Below, one piece after another: positions 1 to 40,378 of a stretch of 64,000 nt of DNA. A model generated the notes under the pieces. That model saw only the letters and a list, made by a program, of their open reading frames with translations. It searched no databases and had not been told where the DNA came from. Source of the DNA: Ferrovibrio sp. MS7 (lineage in GTDB: Bacteria; Pseudomonadota; Alphaproteobacteria; Ferrovibrionales; Ferrovibrionaceae); contig NZ_JBBKBA010000002.1 in the NCBI RefSeq assembly GCF_038404985.1, positions 372,001-436,000 of the forward strand, written 5' to 3'. Made by a program: the position numbers and the translations under genes. Positions within the stretch are counted from its first letter, which is position 1, and each line of letters begins with the position of its first letter.

Positions 1-1314
1 GACGTAGTGCAGCAGGTGCATGGCGAACTTGACCGCATGGAAGCCATGGTGCAGGCGGTGCGCAATGGGACCTGGCGCGGCGCCACCGGCGAGACTTTCC
101 GCTATGTGGTGAATATCGGCATCGGCGGTTCCGACCTCGGGCCGCGCATGGTGGTCGATGCCCTGGCCGCCGACCATGAGCCCGGCCTTGACGTAAAATT
201 CGTCAGCAATGTGGACGGCGCCGATCTGATGCGGGTGCTGGCCGGCTGCGAGCCGGCACGCACCCTGATCATTGTCGCCTCCAAGACCTTCACCACTCAG
301 GAAACCATGGCCAATGCCGCCAGCGCGCGGCACTGGCTGCAACAGGCCCTGGGCGAAAAGGCCGACTGGGCGGCGCATTTTGTCGCGCTCTCCGCCGCGC
401 CCAAGGCGGTGGCGGCTTTCGGCCTCAAGGCAGACCGCCGCCTGACCTTCTGGGACTGGGTGGGCGGCCGCTATTCGCTGTGGTCGAGCATTGGCTTTCC
501 CATCGCGCTCAGCATCGGCATGGAGAAATTCCGCGATCTGCTCGCCGGCGCCCATGCCATGGACGAACATTTCCGCACGGCGCCGCTGATCGGCAACCTG
601 CCGGTGCTGATGGCGCTCGCCGGCATCTGGAATGTCAACTTCCTCGGCTTCAACTCCCTGGCCGTGCTGCCCTATGACCAGGGCCTCGGTCGCCTGCCGG
701 CCTATCTGCAGCAGGCCGACATGGAGAGCAACGGCAAGTCCACCGACCGCTGGGGCCGCAGCGTCGGCTATGCCACCGGACCGCTGGTATTCGGCGAGCC
801 GGGCACCAATGGTCAGCATGCCTTCTACCAGTTGCTGCATCAGGGCACCCCGGTAGTGCCCGCGGATTTCATCCTGCCGCTGGAAAGCCGCTATCCGCTG
901 GGCCAGCACCACGCCATGCTCACCGCGAATGTGCTGGCACAGGCCGAGGCGCTGATGCTGGGCCGTACGCTGGAGGAAGTCACCGCCGACCTGCGGGCCA
1001 GCGGCATGAGCGATGAGGCCGCAGCGGCCCTGGCGCCACACAAGGTATTCTCTGGCAATCGGCCAAGCGCGCTGATCGCCCTGCCGATCCTTGATCCTTA
1101 CCATCTTGGGATGCTTATCGCGCTCTACGAGCATAAGATTTTCTGCCAGGGCGTGATCTGGGGGGTGAACTCCTTCGACCAGTGGGGCGTAGAACTGGGC
1201 AAGCGTCTGGCCGGCCCGATCCTGGAAGAGTTGACGGACCCGAGCCGGCAACCGCATCATGACGGCGCAACCAGCGCGCTGATTGCACTGGTCCGCCGGG
1301 CAACGCTTCGGTGA
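1..1314 (+). CDS. pgi: Glucose-6-phosphate isomerase, 5'-truncated by the window
   Basis: Interconverts glucose 6-phosphate and fructose 6-phosphate in the cytoplasm (glycolysis, gluconeogenesis). The frame is open to the first base, so the N-terminus lies outside the window; about 437 codons are visible. Both family signatures are present: DWVGGRYSLWSSIG in the middle and GVIWGVNSFDQWGVELGK near the C-terminus. An N-terminal IGIGGSDLGPRM segment matches the sugar-phosphate isomerase (SIS) fold. The 65-base gap to the next gene on the same strand shows no clear terminator. Identity is secure; only the missing start is uncertain. Confidence 0.97.
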   Translation, partial: DVVQQVHGELDRMEAMVQAVRNGTWRGATGETFRYVVNIGIGGSDLGPRMVVDALAADHEPGLDVKFVSNVDGADLMRVLAGCEPARTLIIVASKTFTTQETMANAASARHWLQQALGEKADWAAHFVALSAAPKAVAAFGLKADRRLTFWDWVGGRYSLWSSIGFPIALSIGMEKFRDLLAGAHAMDEHFRTAPLIGNLPVLMALAGIWNVNFLGFNSLAVLPYDQGLGRLPAYLQQADMESNGKSTDRWGRSVGYATGPLVFGEPGTNGQHAFYQLLHQGTPVVPADFILPLESRYPLGQHHAMLTANVLAQAEALMLGRTLEEVTADLRASGMSDEAAAALAPHKVFSGNRPSALIALPILDPYHLGMLIALYEHKIFCQGVIWGVNSFDQWGVELGKRLAGPILEELTDPSRQPHHDGATSALIALVRRATLR

Positions 1315-29677: not shown

Positions 29678-31132
29678 TTAATCCTCTTCAGGCAGGGGGA
29701 CTTCACCGCCCTCCTCGTCCGGCGTATCCGGCAGTGGCAGATCGCCGCTGTTCTCTATGCCCACCGGCAAGCCGTCGACCGGGATGACATTCTCCGAGCC
29801 GACGCCACCCCCGCCGCCATAAAGCTGTTCGGGCAGCCACAAGGCGATTTCCGGGAAGAAATAGAGCAAGGCCATGGCAACCAGAACGATGGCGACGAAG
29901 GGATAAATGCCGGCGAAAATCTCGTCGATCGAAATATTCTTCGGCGCCACGCCTTTACAATAGAAGGCCGCCATCGCCACCGGTGGTGTGAGGAATGACG
30001 TCTGCAGATTGAGCGCCACCAGGATGCCGAAGAACAGCGGGTCGACGCCGTAATGCTGTAGCAGCGGCAGAAAGATCGGCACGAAAATGACGATGATTTC
30101 GGTCCATTCCAGCGGCCAGCCGAGCAGGAAGATCAGGAACTGCGCCAGCAGCATGAATTGCGTGCTGGAGAGATCGAGATAATCGATCAGATCCTTCACC
30201 ACTTCATGGCCGTTGAGATAGGCAAACACCGCCGAGAAGGTGGCGGAGCCGACGAACAGCCAGCAGACCATCGCCGCCGAGCGGGCGGTAAGGAACACCG
30301 ACTCCTTCAGTTTCTCGATGCTGAAGCTGCGATAGGCTATGGCCAGCACGATGGCACCGGCGGCGCCCACGGCCGCCGCTTCCGTCGGCGTGGCCAGACC
30401 GGCGAGAATCGCACCCAGCACCGAGATGATCAGGGCTGCAAGCGGCACGAAAGAGGTGAACAACGCCCACATCACCTGGGTGAAGGGCACGTCGAGGATT
30501 TCCTTCGGCGGCTTCGGTGCCAGTTGCGGGTTTAGCACGGCCCGCATGATCACATAGAGCACGTAGAGGCCGGCCAGCATCAGGCCCGGGAAGAAGGCAC
30601 CGGCATAGAGCTTCACCACCGAGACGCCGGCCGTGGCGCCATAGAGGATCAGCAGCACGCTGGGCGGAATCAGGATGCCAAGGCAGCCGCCGGCGCAGAC
30701 CACACCGGTGGCCAGCTTCTTGTCATAACCGGCACGCAGCATGGAAGGCAGCGCCAGCAGGCTCATCAGCGTCACCACCGCGCCGACAATGCCGGTGGCG
30801 GTGGCGAACATGGCGCAGGTGAGCAAAGTGGCGACGGCAAGCGAACCAGGTATGTGTTTCGCCGCCAACTCGATACTGAGGAATAATCGGTCGAGGATAT
30901 TGGCGCGCTCGACGATATAGCCCATGAACAGAAACAGCGGCACCGAGATCAGCACGTCATTGGCCATGACCGAGAAGGTGCGCTGCACAAAAAGCTGGAA
31001 GATATGGTCGCCCATGGCGTAGTAGCCAAAGCCGACGCCCATGGCCATCAGGGTGAAGGCGATGGGAAAACCGAACGCGATGGCGAAAAGGAACGCCACC
31101 AGCATGGTAATGCCAACCTGGGGATCGGTCAT
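29678..31132 (-). CDS. dctM: TRAP transporter large permease (DctM family)
   Basis: The 12-helix membrane subunit of a tripartite ATP-independent periplasmic transporter, 484 residues; it is driven by the ion gradient and works with the small permease and binding protein beside it. Typical segments include GVVCAGGCLGILIPPSVLLILYG and GLATPTEAAAVGAAGAIVL. The core ends near residue 430. An acidic, Gly/Pro-rich tail of about 50 residues (through LYGGGGGVGSENVIP to EEGGEVPLPEED) follows, which is unusual for the family. The ATG overlaps the dctQ stop by 4 bases. Confidence 0.95.
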   Translation of the reverse strand: MTDPQVGITMLVAFLFAIAFGFPIAFTLMAMGVGFGYYAMGDHIFQLFVQRTFSVMANDVLISVPLFLFMGYIVERANILDRLFLSIELAAKHIPGSLAVATLLTCAMFATATGIVGAVVTLMSLLALPSMLRAGYDKKLATGVVCAGGCLGILIPPSVLLILYGATAGVSVVKLYAGAFFPGLMLAGLYVLYVIMRAVLNPQLAPKPPKEILDVPFTQVMWALFTSFVPLAALIISVLGAILAGLATPTEAAAVGAAGAIVLAIAYRSFSIEKLKESVFLTARSAAMVCWLFVGSATFSAVFAYLNGHEVVKDLIDYLDLSSTQFMLLAQFLIFLLGWPLEWTEIIVIFVPIFLPLLQHYGVDPLFFGILVALNLQTSFLTPPVAMAAFYCKGVAPKNISIDEIFAGIYPFVAIVLVAMALLYFFPEIALWLPEQLYGGGGGVGSENVIPVDGLPVGIENSGDLPLPDTPDEEGGEVPLPEED

Positions 31133-31731
31133 CGGCTGGCCTCCTGGCCGTCAGCGCCATACTGCTTCTGCAACACCTGTTCGAGTTCCTCCACGTCGCC
31201 AAGACGCGGCGGCCAGACATTGTTACGGATGCAGTAGAGGCAGCGCAGCACTTCCGCCACACCCTGCAGCAGGAACAGCACGCCGGTGATCGGGATGATG
31301 GTCTTGAAATGATAGATTGGCGGCCCGTTCGGACTGAACAGGCTGCGCTCCTTCATCGCCCAGGAATGCGCGGCATAGTCCCAGCCGGAATAGATCAGGG
31401 TGATGATGCCCGGGAAGAAGAACAGGAAGTAGAGCGCCAGGTCGAAGCGCGCCTGGGTCGCCGGCTGCCAACTGCGATAGAGCCAGTCACCACGGACATG
31501 GCCATTGCGTGCCAGCGTATAGGCGCCAGCCATCATGAACAATGTGCCGTAGAGGATATAGGCGGCATCAAAGGCCCAGTCCGTGGGCGCTTTCAGCACA
31601 TAGCGCGAGAACACTTCGTAAGAAGTGGCGGCGGTGAGCAGCAGAATGCACCAGCCGAAAATCTTTCCCACCCAGGTATTGAGGCTGTCGATCCAGTAGA
31701 CCAGACGGCCATCGAAACTCTCCCTGTTCAT
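31129..31731 (-). CDS. dctQ: TRAP transporter small permease (DctQ family)
   Basis: A four-helix membrane subunit of 200 residues. The family features are visible: a first helix (GKIFGWCILLLTAATSYEVFSRYVL), an APTDWAFDAAYILYG segment, and further helices FDLALYFLFFFPGIITLIY and IIPITGVLFLLQGVAEVLRCLY. I start it at ATG (MNRESFD), preceded by GGGGAG, in place of the GTG two codons upstream. It sits between dctP and dctM and is coupled to the latter. Confidence 0.93.
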   Translation of the reverse strand: MNRESFDGRLVYWIDSLNTWVGKIFGWCILLLTAATSYEVFSRYVLKAPTDWAFDAAYILYGTLFMMAGAYTLARNGHVRGDWLYRSWQPATQARFDLALYFLFFFPGIITLIYSGWDYAAHSWAMKERSLFSPNGPPIYHFKTIIPITGVLFLLQGVAEVLRCLYCIRNNVWPPRLGDVEELEQVLQKQYGADGQEASR

Positions 31732-31791
31732 CGTCACTCCCCGCTTATATTTTTACGCTTTTTATACAGAACTGGCCCCCAGTAGCAGAAC

Positions 31792-31820
31792 GGGAACCGC
31801 CGGCCATGCCGACGGCTCCC
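31792..31820 (-). repeat. Long intercistronic stem-loop between dctP and dctQ
   Basis: Two 13-base arms (31792-31804 and 31808-31820) pair completely, with two G-U wobbles on the minus-strand RNA, around a 3-base loop. No T run follows. Such hairpins between a binding-protein gene and its permease genes usually protect the upstream message so that the binding protein is made in excess. Confidence 0.65.
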
Positions 31821-31845
31821 GCCCGGAAGCAAAATACTAACTGTA

Positions 31846-33021
31846 TCAGCCCTTCTTCGGCGCGAAGGTGTGGTTGTAGGCCATCTGCTTGCTCGGGGTG
31901 TTGAGCAGTTCATAACGCACCGTGCGGCGCACCCAGTCGAGCTGCGACTTCACCACCTTGTCGAAGAACGGCTCTTCGCGCTGCGCCTTGAGCACGACAT
32001 CCCAGGCCTTGAGCTGGGCTTCCTGCACCGAACGCGGCGTGGTGTAGACCTTCACCTTGTCCTTGCTCTGCAATTCCTGCAGGTCGCGGGAATAGCGGTC
32101 GAGCGCCTTCCACGACATGTCGGACGAGGCGGCTTCGGCAGCATACTTGATGACCGCCTTCTGCTCGGCCGAGAGGGCATCGAACTTGGTCTTGTTGAAG
32201 ATGATCTCGAAGCATTCCGCCGACTGGTGCCAGCTTTGCAGCATGAACACCTTCGAGACGTCCGGGAAGCCCAGCACGCGGTCGGAAGACGGATTGTTGA
32301 ACTCCGCCGCATCCAGCAGGCCACGATCCATGGCCGGCACGATTTCGCCGCCGGCGACGATGGTGACAGCGGCGCCCATTTCCTTGAACACGTCCGCCGA
32401 GAGGCCGACGGTACGGTATTTCAGGTTCTTGAAGTCGTCCGCCGTCTTCACTTCCTTCTTGAACCAGCCGAGCGGCTGGCACGGCATCGGCGCCGACATG
32501 AAGCCGACAATGTTCAGCTTCAGGATGTCGTGCAGCAGTTCGTTGTAGAACTTGTAGCCGCCGCCATAGGCCATCCAGGCCAGCACGCCATTGGCATCCC
32601 AGCCGAAGGGCGGCACGGTGCCAAACAGCGAGAAGGCCTTGTGCTTGCCATACCAGTAGGCGCTGACGCCATGGCCGGCATCCAGCACGCCGCTATGCAC
32701 CGCATCCTGCATCTGGAAGGCTGGCACCACGGAGCCGGCGGCGAGCAATTCGAGCTTGAGGCGGCCGCCCGACATCTCGTTGACGCGGGTGGCATAATCG
32801 CCAGCCATCTCGTGGAAGATATCCTTCGACGGCCAGGTCGACTGGAATTTCAGGGTCACGGTCTGGGCACGGCTGACATTCGGCATCGCCACCGTGGCAA
32901 CCGCTGCGCCGGCGGCAATACCAGCCCCGCTGAGAAAGCGGCGGCGGCTGCTCTTGCCTTTGTCGAGAGCGGTCGTGGTATCGGCAACAGTCTTCGCTGC
33001 CGGCTTTTGCTGCTCGGTCAT
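31846..33021 (-). CDS. dctP: TRAP transporter substrate-binding protein (DctP family)
   Basis: A periplasmic solute-binding protein of 391 residues. It carries a twin-arginine-type signal (KSSRRRFLSGAGIAAGAAVATVAM, ending near SRAQ), so it may be exported folded. The mature part has the DctP pattern: VTLKFQSTWPSKDIFHEMA, then MSGGRLKLELLAAGSVVPAF and NLKYRTVGLSADVFKEMGA with the Arg that usually holds a substrate carboxylate. This variety, with HxSAECFEIIFN, resembles the subfamily for mannitol/chloroaromatic or alpha-keto acids; the exact ligand is unknown. GGAGGAAACCTA precedes the ATG. Confidence 0.94.
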   Translation of the reverse strand: MTEQQKPAAKTVADTTTALDKGKSSRRRFLSGAGIAAGAAVATVAMPNVSRAQTVTLKFQSTWPSKDIFHEMAGDYATRVNEMSGGRLKLELLAAGSVVPAFQMQDAVHSGVLDAGHGVSAYWYGKHKAFSLFGTVPPFGWDANGVLAWMAYGGGYKFYNELLHDILKLNIVGFMSAPMPCQPLGWFKKEVKTADDFKNLKYRTVGLSADVFKEMGAAVTIVAGGEIVPAMDRGLLDAAEFNNPSSDRVLGFPDVSKVFMLQSWHQSAECFEIIFNKTKFDALSAEQKAVIKYAAEAASSDMSWKALDRYSRDLQELQSKDKVKVYTTPRSVQEAQLKAWDVVLKAQREEPFFDKVVKSQLDWVRRTVRYELLNTPSKQMAYNHTFAPKKG

Positions 33022-33250
33022 TAGGTTTCCTCCGTTGTATCGGCCGCGGTTCGCGACCGGGTTCTTATTATTGTTGACTCAATACTTACGAGTGAGTGGA
33101 GGAATGATTACGGAGGCAGCCGGAGGCTGGCAAGGACAAATATCCAAGTGATCAATAAATCTCACGACTTCGTGCGATATCGGTGGATGCCCAACCTTTT
33201 CGCAGATGCGAAAAGCCCGGATCGTGCCGGTTTGCCCAATCAATAGCCAA

Positions 33251-34192
33251 TCAGTAGGCCGTGAAAAGCACCATGAAGGCGGAGACCGTGATCGTGGCAA
33301 TCACGGTGGTGACCAGAATCGTCGTCGAGGCACGCTCGACATAGGTATTCTGGGTCGTCGCCAGGATATAAACATTGGCCGCCGTGGGCATCGAGGCCTG
33401 GATCACCGCAACGGCAGTAAGGAAGGGATCGAGTTTCAGCACCAGGCTGGCCAGCATCCAGACCACCAGCGGATGGATCGCCAGTTTGCCGATGGTGGTA
33501 AGGGTCACCTCTTCCAGCCCATCGCTCAATGGGCGACCGACCAGGGTAAGGCCGAGCGAGAACAGGGCGCAGGGCGCCGAGGCGGCGGCCAGCAGATTGC
33601 CGAAAGCATCGACCGGGGCCGGCAGCGACCAGCCGGTGAAGCCCCAGGCCAGGCCGGCAAAGGTGGCGATGATCAGCGGATTGCGCGCCATGCCGATCAG
33701 CACGCGTTTGAAAATGGCCTTCACCGAGGCATGGCGACCGCCGGTGCCTTCGATGATGGCGGTGGTGAGCGGGATCAGCACCACATGATCGAACACAATC
33801 ACCAGCACCGCCGGCAGCACGGCGGCATCGCCGAACAGCGCGATCATGATCGGCAGTCCCATATAGCCGACATTGCCGAAGGCTGCGCCCATGCCCTGTA
33901 CGCCACGCTCACCCCAGTTCAAGCGCGGGAACAATAGCCGGCTGAGAAACACCACGAGGCCATAGGTGATCAGGCCGCCACCGGTATAGGCAGCGACGAA
34001 GCGCGGATCGAACGCCTCCACCACCGGTGCCGACGACATCTTCATGAACAGCATCACCGGCAACGCAAACCAGATCACGAAGGCGTTCAGCCCGACATGG
34101 GCATTGGCGGTGATGAGGCGGAAATGGCCGGCACCATAGCCGGTGAAAATCAAGCCGAAGAAGGGCAGCGAAACGGTCAGCAATGTTTCCAT
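33251..34192 (-). CDS. AEC (auxin efflux carrier) family transporter
   Basis: An inner-membrane carrier of 313 residues with about ten hydrophobic helices in two halves. Recognisable parts are the first helix (LPFFGLIFTGYGAGHF), GVQGMGAAFGNVGYMGLPIMIALFG with the family NxGxxGLP pattern, and the second-half ASAPCALFSLGLTLVG and ASMPTAANVYILA. Bacterial members move malate, malonate or other carboxylates. The ATG of METLLTVS is chosen because the longer frame reads back into the thioesterase gene. It is last in an operon with thioesterase, TetR and crotonase. Confidence 0.92.
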   Translation of the reverse strand: METLLTVSLPFFGLIFTGYGAGHFRLITANAHVGLNAFVIWFALPVMLFMKMSSAPVVEAFDPRFVAAYTGGGLITYGLVVFLSRLLFPRLNWGERGVQGMGAAFGNVGYMGLPIMIALFGDAAVLPAVLVIVFDHVVLIPLTTAIIEGTGGRHASVKAIFKRVLIGMARNPLIIATFAGLAWGFTGWSLPAPVDAFGNLLAAASAPCALFSLGLTLVGRPLSDGLEEVTLTTIGKLAIHPLVVWMLASLVLKLDPFLTAVAVIQASMPTAANVYILATTQNTYVERASTTILVTTVIATITVSAFMVLFTAY

Positions 34193-34218
34193 GGCACGCC
34201 TCCCTCCCCCTTGCGGCC

Positions 34219-35616
34219 TCAGGCCAGTTGCAGCAGACGCTTGCCGAAGCTGGCGCGTGCCGGCTCCGGTAGTGGCACCGATTTGCGTGCCTTGAGATCG
34301 AACAGCACCGCCAGCACTTCGGCGGTGGCGATGGTCTCGCCGGTATTGCTGTCGAGCAGCACATGGCAGAAGCGCCAGGTCTTGTCGCGCAATTCCAGCA
34401 CGCCGGTACGGCAATTATAGGCATCGCCGACCCGCATCGCGCGCTTGATTTCGATAGTGTAGTCCAGCGCTGCCGAACCAAGCCCGGCCTCGCGCATCGA
34501 TACGGCATTGTATTCCGAGCCGGACAGCAGGTTCATCGCCGCCGAGGAGAACCGCGCCATCAGGAAACGCTCGGCCATGCGGCCATCATCATAACATTCC
34601 CATTGATCCACCCCGCCACGGCAGGTTTCATACATGCCCGGCTGCACCGTGGTGGGGGCGGCCGGCATACCATTGGGCGGCGCCGGCGCAGGCCCGGCGA
34701 AAGCGGCGGCATAGGCTTGCGCGCGCGCCAGGGCCTCGGGCGGAAACGGCGCGGCGGCACCGCTGTCGCTACGCTCCAGCATGATGCCGGCTTCGACGCT
34801 GGCGGCCAGGATGCCGGTCTCCGGGTCGATTACTTCATGGTAGAGCTGCAGCCCATCGCTGCCAGCGGCGCGGATGCCGCTGCGTACAGTGGTGACGGCA
34901 GCCGCATGCATCTCGCGCTTGAAAGACAGCCGGTAGCGCTGCGCCTGGATGCGCAGACCGAGCGCCTTCAATGCCTTCGGGCCAAGCCCGATGGCATTCA
35001 GCACCTGGCGGTCCGCTTCCGCCGCACGGCCCAGATAAAATTGCACATTGAGATGCCCCATGCGGTCGCATTCCCAGGCATTCACCGGGCTGCGGTGGCT
35101 GGCGATCCAGCCAGGCTCCAGCTTCGGCACGGCATGCTGCACCAGCGGCTCGTCGCCCTTGATCAGCAGCCGGGAGAAGCCCTGTTGCAGATCATCGGGG
35201 AACGGTACCGACTTGCGCGCTTCGAGATCGAAGCAGAGGCCCAGCACATCGGCCTTGAACGCAATATCGCCGCTTTCGGCATCGAACAGGCGGTGGTGCA
35301 GTACCATCTTGCGCCCTTCGATCAGCTTCACCGCGCTTTCCAACCGCAGCAGCGTGCCGGCGCGCAATTCCTTCATGTAATCGAGGTTCTGGTTCACCGC
35401 CACCATACCAAGGCGGCGCTCCTCCAGTCCTTTGCGGCCAAGCCCGCCTTCCAGCAGCATGCTGGCCACCGCATCGCTGAGGCGGCCGACATAGAACTGC
35501 ACATTGAGATGGCCATATTGGTCGCATTCCCAGGCTGCGACCGAGCCGCGATAGGTTTCGCGAAAGGCTGACACGGGGGGGACTCTTCTGTCTCGAGAGG
35601 CGGAATATCCTGCCAT
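34219..35616 (-). CDS. Three-repeat hotdog-fold acyl-CoA thioesterase-like protein
   Basis: A 465-residue protein made of three consecutive 4-hydroxybenzoyl-CoA-thioesterase-like repeats, at about residues 20-155, 170-305 and 328-465. Repeats 1 and 2 share VxAWECDxxGHLNVQFYxGR, with the Asp (D32, D184) in the usual active-site position; repeat 3 has QWECYDDGRMAERFLMAR, with the GH replaced by GR. Repeats 1 and 3 both end in a FDLxARKSVPxP strand. Linker 305-327 is Ala/Pro-rich. It probably hydrolyses an acyl-CoA from the pathway of the crotonase in its operon. A GTG near codon 15 is an alternative start. Confidence 0.88.
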   Translation of the reverse strand: MAGYSASRDRRVPPVSAFRETYRGSVAAWECDQYGHLNVQFYVGRLSDAVASMLLEGGLGRKGLEERRLGMVAVNQNLDYMKELRAGTLLRLESAVKLIEGRKMVLHHRLFDAESGDIAFKADVLGLCFDLEARKSVPFPDDLQQGFSRLLIKGDEPLVQHAVPKLEPGWIASHRSPVNAWECDRMGHLNVQFYLGRAAEADRQVLNAIGLGPKALKALGLRIQAQRYRLSFKREMHAAAVTTVRSGIRAAGSDGLQLYHEVIDPETGILAASVEAGIMLERSDSGAAAPFPPEALARAQAYAAAFAGPAPAPPNGMPAAPTTVQPGMYETCRGGVDQWECYDDGRMAERFLMARFSSAAMNLLSGSEYNAVSMREAGLGSAALDYTIEIKRAMRVGDAYNCRTGVLELRDKTWRFCHVLLDSNTGETIATAEVLAVLFDLKARKSVPLPEPARASFGKRLLQLA

Positions 35617-35625
35617 GTTCGCGGT

Positions 35626-36261
35626 TTATCGCCGCCCGCGCAAGCGCTCGACCACGTGCCCGACCTGGCGGGTAAGGACCATTTCGCCCTCGTCGCCGAG
35701 CATCCGCAGCCTTCCGGTGGCCTGCAGCAGCAGCGTGCCGCAAATGCTGGTGGCCAATTCCACCGTTTCGGCACGCACATGCTCAGGCTCTGTAATGCCA
35801 AGCCCGCCGATAGCATCGCCAAGCAGCGCGAAACACTGGATCAGGCGGCCATTCAGCATGCGGTCCAGTTGCGGGCTGAGGCCGATGGGCTTCAGTCCCT
35901 GGGCGAGATAGAGGCCGAGATGCAGATCCTCGGGGCGGCGCTGATAGAAACGGTAGAAGCCGAGCGCGCCGGCCAGCAGGCGTGCTTCCGGCGGGGCCGC
36001 CGGATCCACCGCCTCGCGCATGCTTTTCAGCAGGTCGGCCAGCGATGCCTGCAGCATCTCGGCATAGATCGCCTCCTTGGACTCGAATTGCAGATACACC
36101 GTGCCGGGCGCGATGCCGGCGGCTTCGGCAATGGCGCGGATGGTGGCGCCTTCCAGCCCCTGCGCGGCGAAGACACCGCGCGCGGCATCGAGGATGGCTT
36201 CGCGCTTGAAGCTCCGCAATGCCGCGCGGCGGCCCTGTTTCTGTTCGACGCTAGCGGGCAT
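35626..36261 (-). CDS. TetR/AcrR family regulator
   Basis: A 211-residue regulator. The helix-turn-helix is AILDAARGVFAAQG to GTVYLQFESKEAIYAEML (about residues 20-65); the ligand domain is divergent. I start it at the ATG of MPASVEQKQ, which overlaps the crotonase stop by 11 bases; a longer frame within the crotonase gene exists. It lies second in the crotonase operon, so it probably represses it through the dyads upstream of that gene, with an acyl-CoA as the likely inducer (inference). Confidence 0.9.
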   Translation of the reverse strand: MPASVEQKQGRRAALRSFKREAILDAARGVFAAQGLEGATIRAIAEAAGIAPGTVYLQFESKEAIYAEMLQASLADLLKSMREAVDPAAPPEARLLAGALGFYRFYQRRPEDLHLGLYLAQGLKPIGLSPQLDRMLNGRLIQCFALLGDAIGGLGITEPEHVRAETVELATSICGTLLLQATGRLRMLGDEGEMVLTRQVGHVVERLRGRR

Positions 36262-37120
36262 TCTTCCACGACAGCGGATCACCGCCATCGCGTTCCTTTA
36301 CCGCCGCCTTGAAGCCGACCTGTTCGCAACGGTCCTTGAAGGCAATGCCTTCCGGCGTATGCCGCGTGATGCCGTCGAACACGGTGGCCAGCGTCTGGGT
36401 GGAATTCAGCCCCATATTGTCCAGCGCCTGGTTCACCATCAGCTTCTGCATCATCAACTGATTCTTCGGCACACTGGCGATACGGCCGAGCAGGTCCTCG
36501 ACATAGTCGTCCAACTGCGACTCCGGCACGCTCTCGATCACCAGGCCATATTCCTTGGCGGTGCGGCCATCAATCAGGTCGCCGGTCAGCAGCATGCGCT
36601 TGGCGCGTTCAGCGCCCAGGCGATAAACCCACATCGCCGTGGTCGGGCAGCCCCAGATGCGGGCTGGCGGATAGCCGATGCGGGCATCCTCGGCCATCAC
36701 CACCAGATCGGAGCAAAGTGCGATGTCGCTGCCGCCTGCCACGGCAAAGCCGCGCACCTTGGTCACCACGGGTTTGAGCGAGCGCCAGAGGCTGAAATAG
36801 CAATCGGTGCAATGGCGCATCCACTGGTAATCCACCATCGGGTCCCAGGGCATGTCCTGGCTGCCCTTCACCGGGCGCGGCGCCTCGGCATAGGCCTTGA
36901 GGTCATAGCCGGCGCAGAAGGCGCGGCCGGCGCCGGTCAGCGCGATGACATGTACTGCATCATCCCAATTGGCGCGCTCAACGGCGGCTTTCAGGGCATC
37001 GGGCAGTTCGTCGTTGATGGCGTTGAGATGTTCCGGCCGGTTCAGGGTGATACGGGCGATGCGGCCATCGCGCTCGTAGAGCACCACAGGCTCTTTGCTG
37101 CTCGGCGGTTCTTTGCTCAT
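36251..37120 (-). CDS. Enoyl-CoA hydratase/isomerase (crotonase) family protein
   Basis: A 289-residue crotonase-fold enzyme. The CoA-binding and oxyanion segments are RITLNRPEHLNAIND, ALTGAGRAFCAGYDLKAY and KVRGFAVAGGSDIALCSDLVVM. The position usually holding the first catalytic Glu of true hydratases (about GGG-CELA) reads GGSDIALCSD, and the second segment is IGYPPARIWGCPTT, so the reaction may be isomerase- or lyase-like and not classical hydration. First gene of the operon crotonase-TetR-thioesterase-AEC. Confidence 0.92.
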   Translation of the reverse strand: MSKEPPSSKEPVVLYERDGRIARITLNRPEHLNAINDELPDALKAAVERANWDDAVHVIALTGAGRAFCAGYDLKAYAEAPRPVKGSQDMPWDPMVDYQWMRHCTDCYFSLWRSLKPVVTKVRGFAVAGGSDIALCSDLVVMAEDARIGYPPARIWGCPTTAMWVYRLGAERAKRMLLTGDLIDGRTAKEYGLVIESVPESQLDDYVEDLLGRIASVPKNQLMMQKLMVNQALDNMGLNSTQTLATVFDGITRHTPEGIAFKDRCEQVGFKAAVKERDGGDPLSWKNAR

Positions 37121-37162
37121 TTATTGCCTCCCATCCTTATTGATGGGCCGGATACTATCATC

Positions 37163-37186
37163 GTTCATTAAAATGAACAATGTTCA
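37163..37186 (-). promoter_or_regulatory. Overlapping dyads: candidate TetR operator for the crotonase operon
   Basis: GTTCATT-AA-AATGAAC (37163-37178) has 7-base arms; TGAACA-A-TGTTCA (37174-37186) overlaps it. Both lie 43-66 bases upstream of the crotonase ATG, and the second reaches the stop of the GNAT gene. This suits two dimers of the TetR regulator encoded in the operon. Confidence 0.6.
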
Positions 37187-37657
37187 TAATTTCAGCTCGC
37201 GATACCGGGTGTCGGGCATCGGATTGTGGTAATAGGCGGGAATATCGCTGAAGCCGAGGTGGTCGTAGAGCCGGTTGGCCTCCACCATGCGCTGGAGCGT
37301 ATCGAGCCGCAGGGCTTTATAGCCCAGCATCCGCGCCTCCTCGATCACCGCTTCCGCCAGTTGCAGGCCGAGTTTCAGCCCGCGTGCCTCCGGCGCGACA
37401 TAGAGCCGTTTCATCTCGGCGATGCCCTCGCCTAGATCGCGCAGGCCGACGACACCAAGCACCTTGCCATCGACCAGCCCGAGCAGCAGGCAGCCGCGCT
37501 TGGCACCGGTATATTTGCCTGGCAAGTCAGCAAGCTCGGCGTCGAAGTCCTGGAAACAGAGGCTGAAATCCAGCGAATCGGCATAGGCCCGGAACAGGCG
37601 GCGGACCTCATCGAGATCGGCATCGCTGCTGGCGGGACGGATAATGACGTTTGGCAT
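37184..37657 (-). CDS. GNAT-family N-acetyltransferase
   Basis: A 157-residue acyltransferase. The acetyl-CoA-binding segment is KRLYVAPEARGLKLGLQLAEAVIEEARMLGY (motif A, with the R/Q-x-x-G-x-G/A pattern in a relaxed form), followed by LRLDTLQRMVEANRLYDHLGF (motif B). The acceptor is unknown. I begin at the ATG of MPNVIIRP, preceded by AAAGG; the longer frame has no evident ribosome site. The stop reaches into the candidate TetR operator. Confidence 0.9.
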   Translation of the reverse strand: MPNVIIRPASSDADLDEVRRLFRAYADSLDFSLCFQDFDAELADLPGKYTGAKRGCLLLGLVDGKVLGVVGLRDLGEGIAEMKRLYVAPEARGLKLGLQLAEAVIEEARMLGYKALRLDTLQRMVEANRLYDHLGFSDIPAYYHNPMPDTRYRELKL

Positions 37658-37682
37658 GGGACAAGCCTTTGCGAATGAGTGC

Positions 37683-37718
37683 GGGCGGGGCGCGCAACAG
37701 GGACAGCGCACCCCGCCC
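37683..37718 (-). repeat. GC-rich hairpin between phzF-like and GNAT genes
   Basis: GGGCGGGG and CCCCGCCC form an 8-base stem with a 20-base loop that can pair further (CGC/GCG). It lies 45 bases after the PhzF-like stop on the minus strand; no strong T run follows, so termination is uncertain. Confidence 0.45.
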
Positions 37719-37763
37719 TACAACCGCGTCCTTCGGGGGACATCGACGCGGCCGATTCGCATT

Positions 37764-38561
37764 CTAGAGGCGGATGCTGCCCTCCAGGAACAGCACCGCC
37801 TTGCCCGCCATGAACACGCGCTCGCCGGCGGCCCGGCAATACAGCGTGCCACCGCGGGCAGAGGCCTGGTAGGCGATGATCTCGGCTTTGCCGAGACGGT
37901 CGGCCCAATAGGGCACGATGGAACAATGCGCCGAGCCGGTGACCGGATCTTCCGGCACGCCGACACGTGGCGCGAAGAAACGCGAAACACAGTCGATGCC
38001 CGGCCGGTCGCCCGGCGCGGTGGCGATGATGCCGTATTTCTCCAAGCTGGCCAGGCCGGACATATCCGGCTTCAGCGCGCGAACTTCGTCTGCCGTGGCA
38101 TAGACCGCCATATAGGCGGCGGATTCGAGCACGCCAAGCGGCTGGCCGCCCAGTGCTGCCAGCAAGACCGGCGGCGGCGCAGCCATCGTCTGGCCGATAC
38201 GGGCGGGGAAATCCATGGTGATGCGGCCCGACTCGCCAGACAGCGTCACATGCAGGTCGCCGCTGCGGGTGGCAAAGGTGGCGGCATTCAGATCCTGCCG
38301 CAGCTTGTTAAAAATCAGCCAGGCGGTGGCGAGCGTTGCATGGCCGCAGAGATCGACTTCGGCTGCCGGGGTGAACCAGCGCAGGCCATAGCGCGCCCCG
38401 CCCTCCGGCACGAAGAAGGCCGTTTCGGCGAGATTATTCTCTGCCGCGATGGCCTGCATCGTGGCATCCGGCAGCCAGGCCTCGAGGGGCACAATGGCTG
38501 CCGGATTGCCGGCGAATACGGCATCGGCAAAGGCGTCGACCTGGTAGATCGGCAATTGCAT
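37764..38561 (-). CDS. PhzF-family isomerase/epimerase-like protein
   Basis: A 265-residue protein of the PhzF fold (diaminopimelate-epimerase-like). Typical are YQVDAFADAVFAGNPAAIVPL at the start, AENNLAETAFF with the catalytic Glu, RWFTPAAEVDLCGHATLATAWLIF, and the C-terminal VGVPEDPVTGSAHCSIVPYW. No phenazine genes are nearby, so phenazine synthesis should not be inferred; many such enzymes act on other small molecules. Confidence 0.93.
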   Translation of the reverse strand: MQLPIYQVDAFADAVFAGNPAAIVPLEAWLPDATMQAIAAENNLAETAFFVPEGGARYGLRWFTPAAEVDLCGHATLATAWLIFNKLRQDLNAATFATRSGDLHVTLSGESGRITMDFPARIGQTMAAPPPVLLAALGGQPLGVLESAAYMAVYATADEVRALKPDMSGLASLEKYGIIATAPGDRPGIDCVSRFFAPRVGVPEDPVTGSAHCSIVPYWADRLGKAEIIAYQASARGGTLYCRAAGERVFMAGKAVLFLEGSIRL

Positions 38562-38593
38562 TGCAGGACTCCACTAGCCCAGCCGTTCAGAAT

Positions 38594-38860
38594 TTATCGA
38601 AGCCAAAAGGGCTTGCCGGCCTCGGCGGCGACATCCGCGCGGGTCAAGCCAACATCCTTCAGCAGTTCATCGGACACGGCGTGCAACGCCGCCCGTTCCT
38701 CGGCCCGCCGCTGCCACTCGAGCAGCGAAACCACCATGGCGCTCGCCCCTACGGCGATCGCAGCTCCCGCCTTGTCCATGGCCCGACCAAACGACCCGAA
38801 CAGCCGTTCCGCCGGACCTAAATAGACGCTCCGTCCAATTGTATCGATGCATTCAGCCAT
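38594..38860 (-). CDS. DUF1127 small protein
   Basis: An 88-residue protein ending in the DUF1127 (YjiS-like) motif: ERAALHAVSDELLKDVGLTRADV, then AAEAGKPFW. A short hydrophobic stretch (AAIAVGASAMVVSLL) precedes it. DUF1127 proteins are abundant in alphaproteobacteria and some affect RNA turnover and phosphate or carbon metabolism. The ATG of MAECIDT is chosen; the same frame stays open far upstream, but that part is antisense to the MocR gene. It is divergent from MocR across a repeat-rich promoter region. Confidence 0.8.
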   Translation of the reverse strand: MAECIDTIGRSVYLGPAERLFGSFGRAMDKAGAAIAVGASAMVVSLLEWQRRAEERAALHAVSDELLKDVGLTRADVAAEAGKPFWLR

Positions 38861-38890
38861 GACACTGTCTCTTTCTCCATCAATTTGAGT

Positions 38891-38973
38891 GACATTGCAT
38901 TGGTTCAATGTCTGGATTGAATTTGTCATTGACACATTGATGCAGTCAATGCAAATATTGTCACCATGACAAT
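38891..38973 (+). promoter_or_regulatory. Repeat-rich divergent promoter with dyads, one overlapping the MocR start codon
   Basis: The stretch is dense in CATTG/CAATG words. Three inverted repeats are visible: GACATTG...CAATGTC (38891-38912), ATTGAC...GTCAAT (38928-38950) and ATTGTCA-CCA-TGACAAT (38957-38973). The last contains the MocR ATG. Clustered direct and inverted sites between a MocR regulator and its divergent neighbour are typical for this family. Confidence 0.6.
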
Positions 38974-40378
38974 ATGGACGCCCAACCTCGAACAATTCCC
39001 TGGCCCGCGCTACCAGGCATTGGCCACGGCCATCGAAACCGCTGTCCGCTCCGGCGAATTGCCGCCCGGCAGCCGCCTGCCGCCGCAGCGCGATCTGGCC
39101 TGGAAGCTGGGCGTCACGGTTGGCACGGTGAGTCGCGGCTACATGCTGGCCGAGCAGAAGGGCCTGCTTTCCGGCGAGGTCGGGCGCGGCACCTTCGTGC
39201 GCACCAGCAACGACGACTCGCCGGCGAGCGAAGCGCTTGGCGAGCTGGCGCCGGTGCAAAGCCTGCGCCTGCCCAGCCTGATCGAGCTGTCGCATAACGA
39301 ACCGATGCTGCCCGACTACGATGCCATCCTGCGGCGCTCGCTGCGCACCCTGGCGGCGCGCGGTGGCCTTGAGCATCTGCTCGGCTACAGCCGCAGCCTC
39401 GGCGATCCGGCGCACCGCGCGGCAGCCGCGCAATGGATCGGCCGCACCGGGCTCAAGCTTTCGCCCGAACAGGTGATCGCCACTGCCGGGGCGCAACAGG
39501 CTATCGCCATCGTGATGATTGCTCTGGTCGAACCGGGCGAGACCGTGCTGGTGGAAAGCCTGACCTATGGCGGCATCCATGAGAATGCCCGGCTGCGCTC
39601 GGCAACGCTGCATGCTGTGGCGATGGATGAGCACGGCATGCTGCCCGACGCGCTGGACGAAGCCGTGCGCGAGACCGGCGCCCGCATGGTGATGCTGCAG
39701 CCGACCATCCATAATCCGACCAATGCTACCATGCCGCTGGAACGCCGCCAGGCGATCATCGACGTAGCGCGGCGGCATGACCTCACCATCGTCGAGGACG
39801 ATGTGTACGGCTTCATCATCTCTGAGCGGCCCTTGCCAATCGCCGCGCTGGCGCCGGAGCGCACCATCTACATCACCAGTGCCTCGAAATGCATGGCGCC
39901 GGGCCTGCGGGTCGGCTGGCTGGCGGCGCCGCTGGCGCTGATCGAGCGTTTCGCCGATGCGCAGCATGCCGTCGCCGTGAATAACCCGCGGCTCAACCAG
40001 GAAATCGTGCGGCAATGGATCGAGGACGGCACCGCCGCAGCGATGCTGGAGCAATTGCGCGTCGAAACCGCTGCGCGCCAGCAGCTTGCCGCCGAGATCT
40101 TCGCCGGCTACCGCCTGAAGAGCCATCCGGCCAGCCTGCATTGCTTCGTCGAACTGCCCGAGCCATGGCAGTCGAATGATTTCACGGCACAGGCGCTGAT
40201 GCAGGGCGTGCGCATTGCCGGCTGCACGTCTTTCGTGCCGGACCACCGGCAGAATCCGGCGCCGTGGGTGCGCGTGTCGCTCGCCCCCTCGCCGAGCCGC
40301 GAGGAACTGACCGAAGGCCTGCGCCGCCTGCGCGGCCTGCTCGACCGCCGCCCCGAAGCCCGCCGCGGCGTTGTTTAA
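38966..40378 (+). CDS. MocR-subfamily GntR regulator (PLP aminotransferase-like)
   Basis: A 470-residue fusion of a GntR winged helix (about residues 12-75: LPPGSRLPPQRDLAWKLGVTVGTVSRGYMLAEQKGLL) with a fold-type-I aminotransferase domain. The PLP lysine lies in YITSASKCMAPGLRVGWLAAP; ATAGAQQAIAIVM and PTIHNPTNATMPLERR are typical. MocR proteins use PLP or an amino-compound adduct as ligand. The stop overlaps the start of a lactate-permease-like gene, so the carrier may be its target. The ATG lies inside a dyad. Confidence 0.93.
   Translation: MTIWTPNLEQFPGPRYQALATAIETAVRSGELPPGSRLPPQRDLAWKLGVTVGTVSRGYMLAEQKGLLSGEVGRGTFVRTSNDDSPASEALGELAPVQSLRLPSLIELSHNEPMLPDYDAILRRSLRTLAARGGLEHLLGYSRSLGDPAHRAAAAQWIGRTGLKLSPEQVIATAGAQQAIAIVMIALVEPGETVLVESLTYGGIHENARLRSATLHAVAMDEHGMLPDALDEAVRETGARMVMLQPTIHNPTNATMPLERRQAIIDVARRHDLTIVEDDVYGFIISERPLPIAALAPERTIYITSASKCMAPGLRVGWLAAPLALIERFADAQHAVAVNNPRLNQEIVRQWIEDGTAAAMLEQLRVETAARQQLAAEIFAGYRLKSHPASLHCFVELPEPWQSNDFTAQALMQGVRIAGCTSFVPDHRQNPAPWVRVSLAPSPSREELTEGLRRLRGLLDRRPEARRGVV

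Follow-up and report, generated by a model that had tools for sequence, protein, structure and literature searches.

Genes at the locus

The window, which is the whole stretch of 64,000 nucleotides that was analysed, contains a single open reading frame encoding three hotdog repeats (R1, R2 and R3) within a run of four genes at 33251-37120, all of which are encoded on the minus strand and are either separated by short gaps or overlap slightly. The features of this run are as follows.

33251..34192, minus strand: AEC (auxin efflux carrier-type) permease (PF03547, 122.5 bits), 26 nucleotides downstream of the triple hotdog gene
34219..35616, minus strand: triple hotdog open reading frame, 465 residues, or 451 residues with the GTG at 35574 as start codon
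34231..34635, minus strand: hotdog R3, residues 328-462, putative partner half (Pfam, predicted fold, superposition, residue sets)
34636..34704, minus strand: R2-R3 linker, residues 305-327, less conserved than the domains
34705..35109, minus strand: hotdog R2, residues 170-304, putative catalytic half (Pfam, predicted fold, superposition, residue sets)
35110..35160, minus strand: R1-R2 linker, residues 153-169, the probable fusion point, where the overlapping genes of relatives meet
35161..35565, minus strand: hotdog R1, residues 18-152, putative complete module (Pfam, predicted fold, superposition, residue sets)
35572..35574, minus strand: likely true start codon, GTG (V15), from orthologue starts and low pLDDT
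35626..36288, minus strand: TetR-family regulator, directly upstream of the triple hotdog gene
36251..37120, minus strand: enoyl-CoA hydratase (crotonase, NF006128/PRK08272; 409.5 bits, cut-off 257), its frame overlapping that of the TetR regulator

The annotated ATG start is probably 14 codons too early and the true start is probably the GTG at V15, because seven of eight orthologues start at a matching 'M-x-x-F' (for the eighth, L050, the listed start is further upstream) and the AlphaFold2 model has a pLDDT below 50 for residues 1-13. The sequence AGAAGAG stands upstream of this GTG. Rfam at gathering scores gave no RNA element in 30000-40000, and promoter and terminator matches at the triple hotdog gene were near chance.

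Eight of the nine genus loci compared have the complete series of enoyl-CoA hydratase, TetR regulator, triple thioesterase and AEC permease genes; in the ninth, L050, the contig breaks off on the side where the permease would lie. In other relatives, where the hotdogs are encoded by a pair of genes or by a double hotdog gene, these genes are often located near acyl-CoA dehydrogenase-like, thiolase (in L058, NF006090 at 730.0 bits) and 3-hydroxyacyl-CoA dehydrogenase-like genes; the neighbours in L055, L057 and L060 include acyl-CoA carboxylase-like subunits. The gene neighbourhood alone makes a setting in the catabolism of fatty or branched acyl-CoA likely. A carnitine link was also considered, since the best NCBIfam match of the protein is carnitine 3-dehydrogenase NF005716, which scored 70.4 bits against a cut-off of 592 with its best stretch covering only model positions 354-473 of 495. 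This link was dropped, the neighbours in the window being the enoyl-CoA hydratase, the TetR regulator and transporters.

Downstream of the AEC permease, at 29678-33021, we noticed a TRAP transporter set consisting of a DctP-like protein, a small permease (assigned by position only) and a large permease; the three gene clusters of this set occur near the thioesterase in seven of the nine genus loci. At L036:8994-9488 (G000:C1), near acyl-CoA dehydrogenase-like genes, there is a paralogue, a thioesterase with a single hotdog that shares 40% identity with R1, and a match of this type was listed in seven of the ten genomes of the genus.

Three hotdog repeats and their predicted fold

The whole protein matched PF13279 (4HBT_2) in three stretches with 172.6 bits, and the thirds corresponding to R1, R2 and R3 scored 69.4, 59.2 and 52.7 bits when scanned singly, each above the gathering cut-off of 25.5 bits. 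A sequence-only reading of the window had described three tandem thioesterase-like repeats, and this description is borne out by the three PF13279 matches in one chain and by the AlphaFold2 prediction, which has three hotdog folds rather than one or two. The match to TIGR00051 (YbgC/FadM acyl-CoA thioesterase) reached 47.8 bits and stayed below the curated cut-off of 68.7. PF01643, the acyl-ACP thioesterase N-terminal domain, was found to match R3, the C-terminal repeat (30.0 bits, cut-off 23.7), and also matched a single-hotdog relative at 26.2 bits.

The likeness of the repeats is not due to chance because the local alignment scores of 185 (R1-R2), 183 (R1-R3) and 114 (R2-R3) are far above the maxima of 41, 40 and 46 obtained from 300 shuffles of each pair. 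R1 and R2 had been called closely alike, which holds for the shared motif AWECD-x-x-GHLNVQFY but not for the repeats overall, as these are only 32% identical and R1 and R3 are nearly as close at 30%; R2 and R3 are 25% identical. In R3 the motif reads QWECYDDGRMAERFL. It had been said to have lost its GH, and only half of this is correct: the histidine is replaced (H36 to R346) while the glycine is kept as G345. The view that R3 is without a catalytic set of its own stands, with D32 changed to Y342, N38 to A348, Y42 to L352 and E83 to A393 in addition to the change of the histidine.

The full chain was predicted with a pLDDT of 90.2 and a pTM of 0.89 and shows the strand-helix-strand hotdog pattern three times. 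The alignment used for this prediction consisted of 15 rows of triples and singles with no double-hotdog rows, as MAFFT set the N-terminal halves of the double hotdogs on R1 and not on R2 and these were left out. R2-R3 was also folded apart from an alignment of R2-R3 with doubles, giving a pLDDT of 89.1 and leading again to the acyl-ACP thioesterases (4gak, Z 24.4). In the full-chain model, R2-R3 (residues 166-439) superposes as one body on 4gak with a Z of 25.6 over 246 residues at 2.8 Å, and similar values were obtained for FatA (9hrr, Z 24.6) and FatB (5x04, Z 24.4), at 2.8 Å over 246-253 residues. Taken over the acyl-ACP thioesterases 4gak, 2own, 2ess, 5x04 and 9hrr, the superpositions extend over 240-261 residues at 2.6-3.5 Å. 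R2-R3 is therefore predicted to be a double-hotdog unit arranged as in acyl-ACP thioesterases of the FatA/FatB type, and the superposition of the model suggests that R2 and R3 would pair with each other within the chain. The mouse double hotdog thioesterase ACOT7 (6vfy) also superposes on R2-R3 with a Z of 24.0, which is a match of fold alone.

R1, on the other hand, superposes on single hotdogs such as 3ck1 (Z 20.0) and YbgC (1s5u, Z 18.0). It shares fold and motif with YbgC, YbaW and 2hlj (1s5u, 1njk and 2hlj), all of which differ from it in being single domains, and 2hlj was the top sequence hit for each of the two profiles (E 3.1e-14 and 7.1e-14). For example, Asp18 of YbgC, which PMC2698920 gives as required for hydrolysis in H. 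influenzae, appears to correspond to D32 of R1, an equivalence made by eye.

Hotdog domains always pair according to PMC2698920, and R1 could in principle find its partner in R2 or R3 of the same chain, in which case the remaining domain would need a partner from another chain. R1 is more alike to R2 and to R3 than these are to each other, and two superposition rows, 8p8k (20..439) and 8qs0 (19..441), begin in R1 and end in R3. However, 43 of the best 50 superposition rows lie within 163-465 (R2-R3) and five within 14-159 (R1), none of the 50 spans R1 and R2 alone, and in relatives R1 and R2-R3 are separate proteins. We therefore consider such a pairing of R1 within the chain to be improbable.

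Origin and rarity of the fused gene

The fused gene was found in all ten genomes of the genus, the window's own included, at 52-100% identity and with no stops. Its nearest named relative is from a Ferrovibrio MAG (L064, 98%), and of the eight fused-gene records six are named Ferrovibrio and two only as Alphaproteobacteria. Among the other genomes of the order, six of eight carry a single hotdog gene adjacent to a double hotdog gene, where one gene matches R1 and its neighbour matches R2-R3; G011 has the double only and G009 gave no match at 1e-10. The same pair of single and double was observed in two genomes of another family (G057 and G166).

Eight junctions of these pairs were read, and the stop codon of the single overlaps with an in-frame start of the double by 4 nucleotides (ATGA or GTGA) in seven of them and by 10 nucleotides in one, with later possible starts of the double also present in L052 and L054. 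The frames of the single and the double are offset by one base in each of the seven junctions in which frames were compared. These gene arrangements indicate that an overlapping gene pair became one chain in the genus of the window. Since the genes of relatives overlap in different frames, one indel would fuse them and the fused frame might be suspected to be an assembly or frameshift artefact, but an open frame without stops in ten of ten genomes, at identities down to 52%, makes this scarcely credible.

A tree of the repeats was built by a quick method with SH-aLRT support from 101 rows and 135 columns, which are few columns for this number of rows; L042 T2, L091 T1 and L091 T2 were left out as too divergent. 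The nine R1 rows of the genus group together at 99 within a group that holds 17 of the 18 singles (86), and they adjoin the upstream single of G010 (85). R2 was placed with all 28 N-terminal halves of the doubles (97) and R3 with 23 of the 26 C-terminal halves (97). The remaining C-terminal halves, those of L038, L061_9313 and L073, form one group in which the full catalytic set is kept. These placements of R1, R2 and R3 fit a fusion of two separate genes and not a fresh triplication.

The three-repeat architecture had been regarded as unusual, and our searches agree. Single open frames matching almost all of the query were found in three of 144 Alphaproteobacteria genomes, namely the window's genome, G049 and G161, the latter two belonging to one other genus. 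This was a search by similarity to the triple hotdog protein, which would miss unrelated triple hotdogs, and at least 87 of the genomes gave no match. A long match in G148 contains a stop, and that locus holds separate doubles. Spread by plasmids was set aside, as only two of 72,556 plasmid records matched at 1e-10. One of the two is a triple from Tistrella mobilis plasmid pTM4, a protein of 449 residues that is 99.3% identical to that of G049.

The pTM4 triple (L091:5935-7284) belongs to a second type of triple hotdog that also includes L062:9249-10598 (G049) and L042:8202-9464 (G010:C7). Pfam counted two stretches in L091, three in L062 and two in L042; in the last the first repeat is undetected and the protein is only a possible triple. 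R1 of the pTM4 protein has one of five residues in each of the two residue sets described below, and having lost most of both sets it should leave only R2-R3 active, as far as these residues tell. We also noticed three consecutive double-hotdog thioesterase genes, amounting to six hotdogs, at L061:8351-11062 (G025) and L105:153-2865 (G148), and in the L061 array the middle double keeps catalytic residues in both halves.

In the open-licence PMC literature, no paper pairing Ferrovibrio with a thioesterase was found and no triple hotdog closer than the fungal fatty acid synthase dehydratase was noticed. The triple hotdog architecture looks uncommon, and few triple hotdogs are known. Doubles of which just one half works are already familiar, at least from what the sources cited here say of MFE-2, HadAB and FatA.

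Residue sets and the likely role of the third repeat

Two sets of columns were compared across singles, doubles and triples. In R1 numbering, the catalytic set consists of D32, H36, N38, Y42 and E83, and the second set, which was picked after the columns were inspected, consists of G70, A72, H108, D130 and R134. A total of 104 repeat rows were counted; close relatives are among them and the counts are not independent events. Rows dropped beforehand were L065-L072 (100% identical to kept rows), L062 (99.3% identical to L091), L064 (97.6% identical to the window protein), L088 (a double broken into two frames), the undetected R1 of L042 and the C-terminal halves of L043 and L085 (fewer than 85 model columns).

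In the window protein, R1 carries the whole catalytic set (D32, H36, N38, Y42 and E83) together with four of the five residues of the second set (G70, H108, D130 and R134), where V72 stands in place of the usual alanine. R2 has all five catalytic residues (D184, H188, N190, Y194 and E235) and only H260 of the second set, and R3 has none of the catalytic residues and all five of the second set (G380, A382, H418, D440 and R444). The same distribution was largely observed in relatives. The catalytic D, H, N, Y and E are present in all 18 singles and in all 28 N-terminal halves of the doubles, whereas the C-terminal halves retain D in 24, H in 5, N in 4 and E in 3 of 26. The second set (G, A, H, D and R) is present in 15, 13, 14, 18 and 17 of the 18 singles and in 25, 24, 26, 25 and 26 of the 26 C-terminal halves, and in only 2, 2, 2, 16 and 10 of the 28 N-terminal halves. 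R3 was found to keep the entire second set in 10 of 11 triples.

The residue sets are thus complementary, at the level of the alignment: halves of the R2 type are catalytic by their residues, halves of the R3 type carry mostly the second set, and R1 carries almost the whole of both sets. A natural reading of this pattern is that a site between two hotdogs would take the first set from one domain and the second set from the other, such that singles, being symmetric pairs, would need both sets and the doubles would have divided them. Among 26 doubles the catalytic score of the C-terminal half and the second-set score of the N-terminal half rise together (Spearman 0.64, kinship ignored). Against this reading, the three doubles with an intact catalytic set in the C-terminal half, L038, L061_9313 and L073, belong to a single group of the tree and have only 3, 2 and 3 of the five second-set residues in their N-terminal half. 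The pattern has further exceptions, as the D and R of the second set persist in 16 and 10 of the 28 N-terminal halves, the singles L037, L039 and L040 have only two to three of the five residues of the second set, and H260 is kept in R2 of all 11 triples despite being a 'partner' residue.

The D32 column behaves differently from the other catalytic columns. The aspartate retained in 24 of 26 C-terminal halves is unexpected for a simply dead site and, like H260 in R2, speaks against the reading of two divided sets. In the R3-type domains of the 11 triples this column was observed to hold D in five, E in five and Y in one, the change to tyrosine occurring only in the species of the window. The aspartate of the double C-terminal halves may serve the structure or act as a partner residue.

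The ratio dN/dS over 12 pairs was 0.00-0.39 for R3, 0.03-0.27 for R1 and 0.05-0.52 for R2, and these ratios are rough as some dS values exceed 1. For example, R3 is 100% identical between L044 and L045 at a dS of 0.16 for this repeat. These ratios show purifying selection on R3, with a constraint about equal to that on R1 and R2. The change of all five catalytic columns in the R3 of the window, the aspartate to tyrosine change included, would suit a decaying remnant that merely fills space, but the identity between L044 and L045, the low dN/dS similar to that of R1 and R2 and the intact second set in nearly all triples make such a decay very unlikely.

The sequence-only reading had proposed R3 as a structural or regulatory domain, and we do not find this to be the best reading. 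A regulatory or ligand-sensing R3 controlling catalysis in R1 and R2 would agree with a domain that is constrained even though its catalytic H, N and E are gone. However, halves of the R3 type keep columns that are mostly lost in the first halves of the doubles, R3 superposes together with R2 as an acyl-ACP thioesterase, and halves of this type are found in double-hotdog proteins without R1; none of these observations calls for a regulator. We regard a regulatory role as quite improbable and R3 as an inherited C-terminal half of a double hotdog. Its most likely function, predicted from sequence and model, is to complete the active site and pocket of R2, because the second set is kept, its constraint is like that on R1 and R2, and R2-R3 superposes on the acyl-ACP thioesterases.

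Among the closest comparisons are FatA and FatB, which like R2-R3 have one half with catalytic residues and one without. PMC12713704 proposes Asp262, Asn264, His266, Asn269 and Glu300 in the C-terminal half of FatA as catalytic and places the substrate cavity in the N-terminal half. The spacing of Asp262 and His266 (D+4 H) is that of D184 and H188 in R2, while the position of Asn264 (D+2) is occupied by Y in R1 and by M in R2. The order of the halves is reversed relative to the FatA described there: the catalytic half comes first in R2-R3 and is C-terminal in FatA. The C-terminal half of this unit accordingly lacks the catalytic residues found there in acyl-ACP thioesterases, as R3 has Y342, R346, A348 and A393 and the D, H, N and E are in R2. 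Furthermore, FatA and FatB are without a counterpart of the extra hotdog R1 at the front. In the profile of the doubles, the C-terminal half aligns to the N-terminal half of 4gak, both with ECD-x-x-GRM. This alignment and the PF01643 match of R3 suggest only weakly that R3 is the counterpart of the FatA N-terminal half, as R1 also matches the acyl-ACP thioesterase N-terminal half and a single matches PF01643.

Other hotdog proteins resemble the window protein in part. PMC2698920 terms the dehydratase of the fungal fatty acid synthase a unique triple hot dog, and this enzyme too has three hotdogs per chain of which two form a pseudodimer (PMC2698920, PMC4491049). According to PMC2698920, its domain 1 is partnered by domain 3, with domain 2 as an insertion, whereas here domains 2 and 3 would pair, judging from the superposition of the predicted model, and it belongs to a different subfamily with a different reaction. 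MFE-2 hydratase 2 and HadAB are described as using one hotdog for catalysis and the other for substrate binding, but they are hydratases or dehydratases and not 4HBT_2 thioesterases, and HadAB consists of two proteins. In ACOT7, Asp213 and Asn24 are named in catalysis (PMC2698920), and by the account in the same source it belongs to another acyl-CoA thioesterase subfamily (hexamer type). It is without a third hotdog, and no ACOT7-type model was among the profile matches of the triple hotdog protein.

We consider the protein to be a fused acyl-thioester hydrolase with a probability of roughly 70%, consisting of a complete module (R1) and a split module in which R2 is catalytic and R3 completes the site and pocket. 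Predicted fold, fusion history, residue patterns and the constraint on R3 were computed, and from these we infer what each face binds, an R1:R1' pairing, the hydrolysis and the substrate. Two neighbouring overlapping genes, one for a single-hotdog thioesterase (now R1) and one for a double-hotdog thioesterase (now R2-R3), appear to have fused. With its catalytic residues and almost all partner residues present, R1 should work like the single-hotdog thioesterases and, by analogy with them, would pair with R1 of a second chain to form two sites per pair. R2 and R3 of one chain would form an asymmetric double hotdog that has a single site, to which R2 would bring Asp184, His188, Asn190 and Glu235 and R3 an acyl/CoA-binding face formed by G380, A382, H418, D440 and R444. 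Labour would be split between the halves in the way described for FatA but in the opposite order. Two such chains would amount to six hotdogs and four active sites. Judging from the neighbouring genes, the substrate probably belongs to the acyl-CoAs of fatty or branched-chain acid catabolism, and the AEC permease may carry the acid released from it.

A more tentative extension, less likely than not, is a thioesterase of two specificities, where a symmetric R1:R1' and an asymmetric R2:R3 are locked at 1:1 by the fusion and possibly serve two acyl-chain ranges. R2-R3 would then be a mirror-order counterpart of FatA/FatB in which one site was lost independently. The match to the acyl-ACP thioesterase N-terminal half that R3 has in common with R1 and with a single makes this mirror order somewhat less likely, and the fused hydrolase slightly so.

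The reading as a fused hydrolase turns what had looked like a dead repeat into a testable statement on how duplicated hotdogs share one active site, in which the two residue sets predict the role of each half. The fused and unfused genes of neighbouring genera provide a natural before-and-after pair. In addition, the halves stand in the reverse order of those in FatA, a hint that one division of labour evolved with opposite polarity; this is relevant to the engineering of chain-length selectivity.
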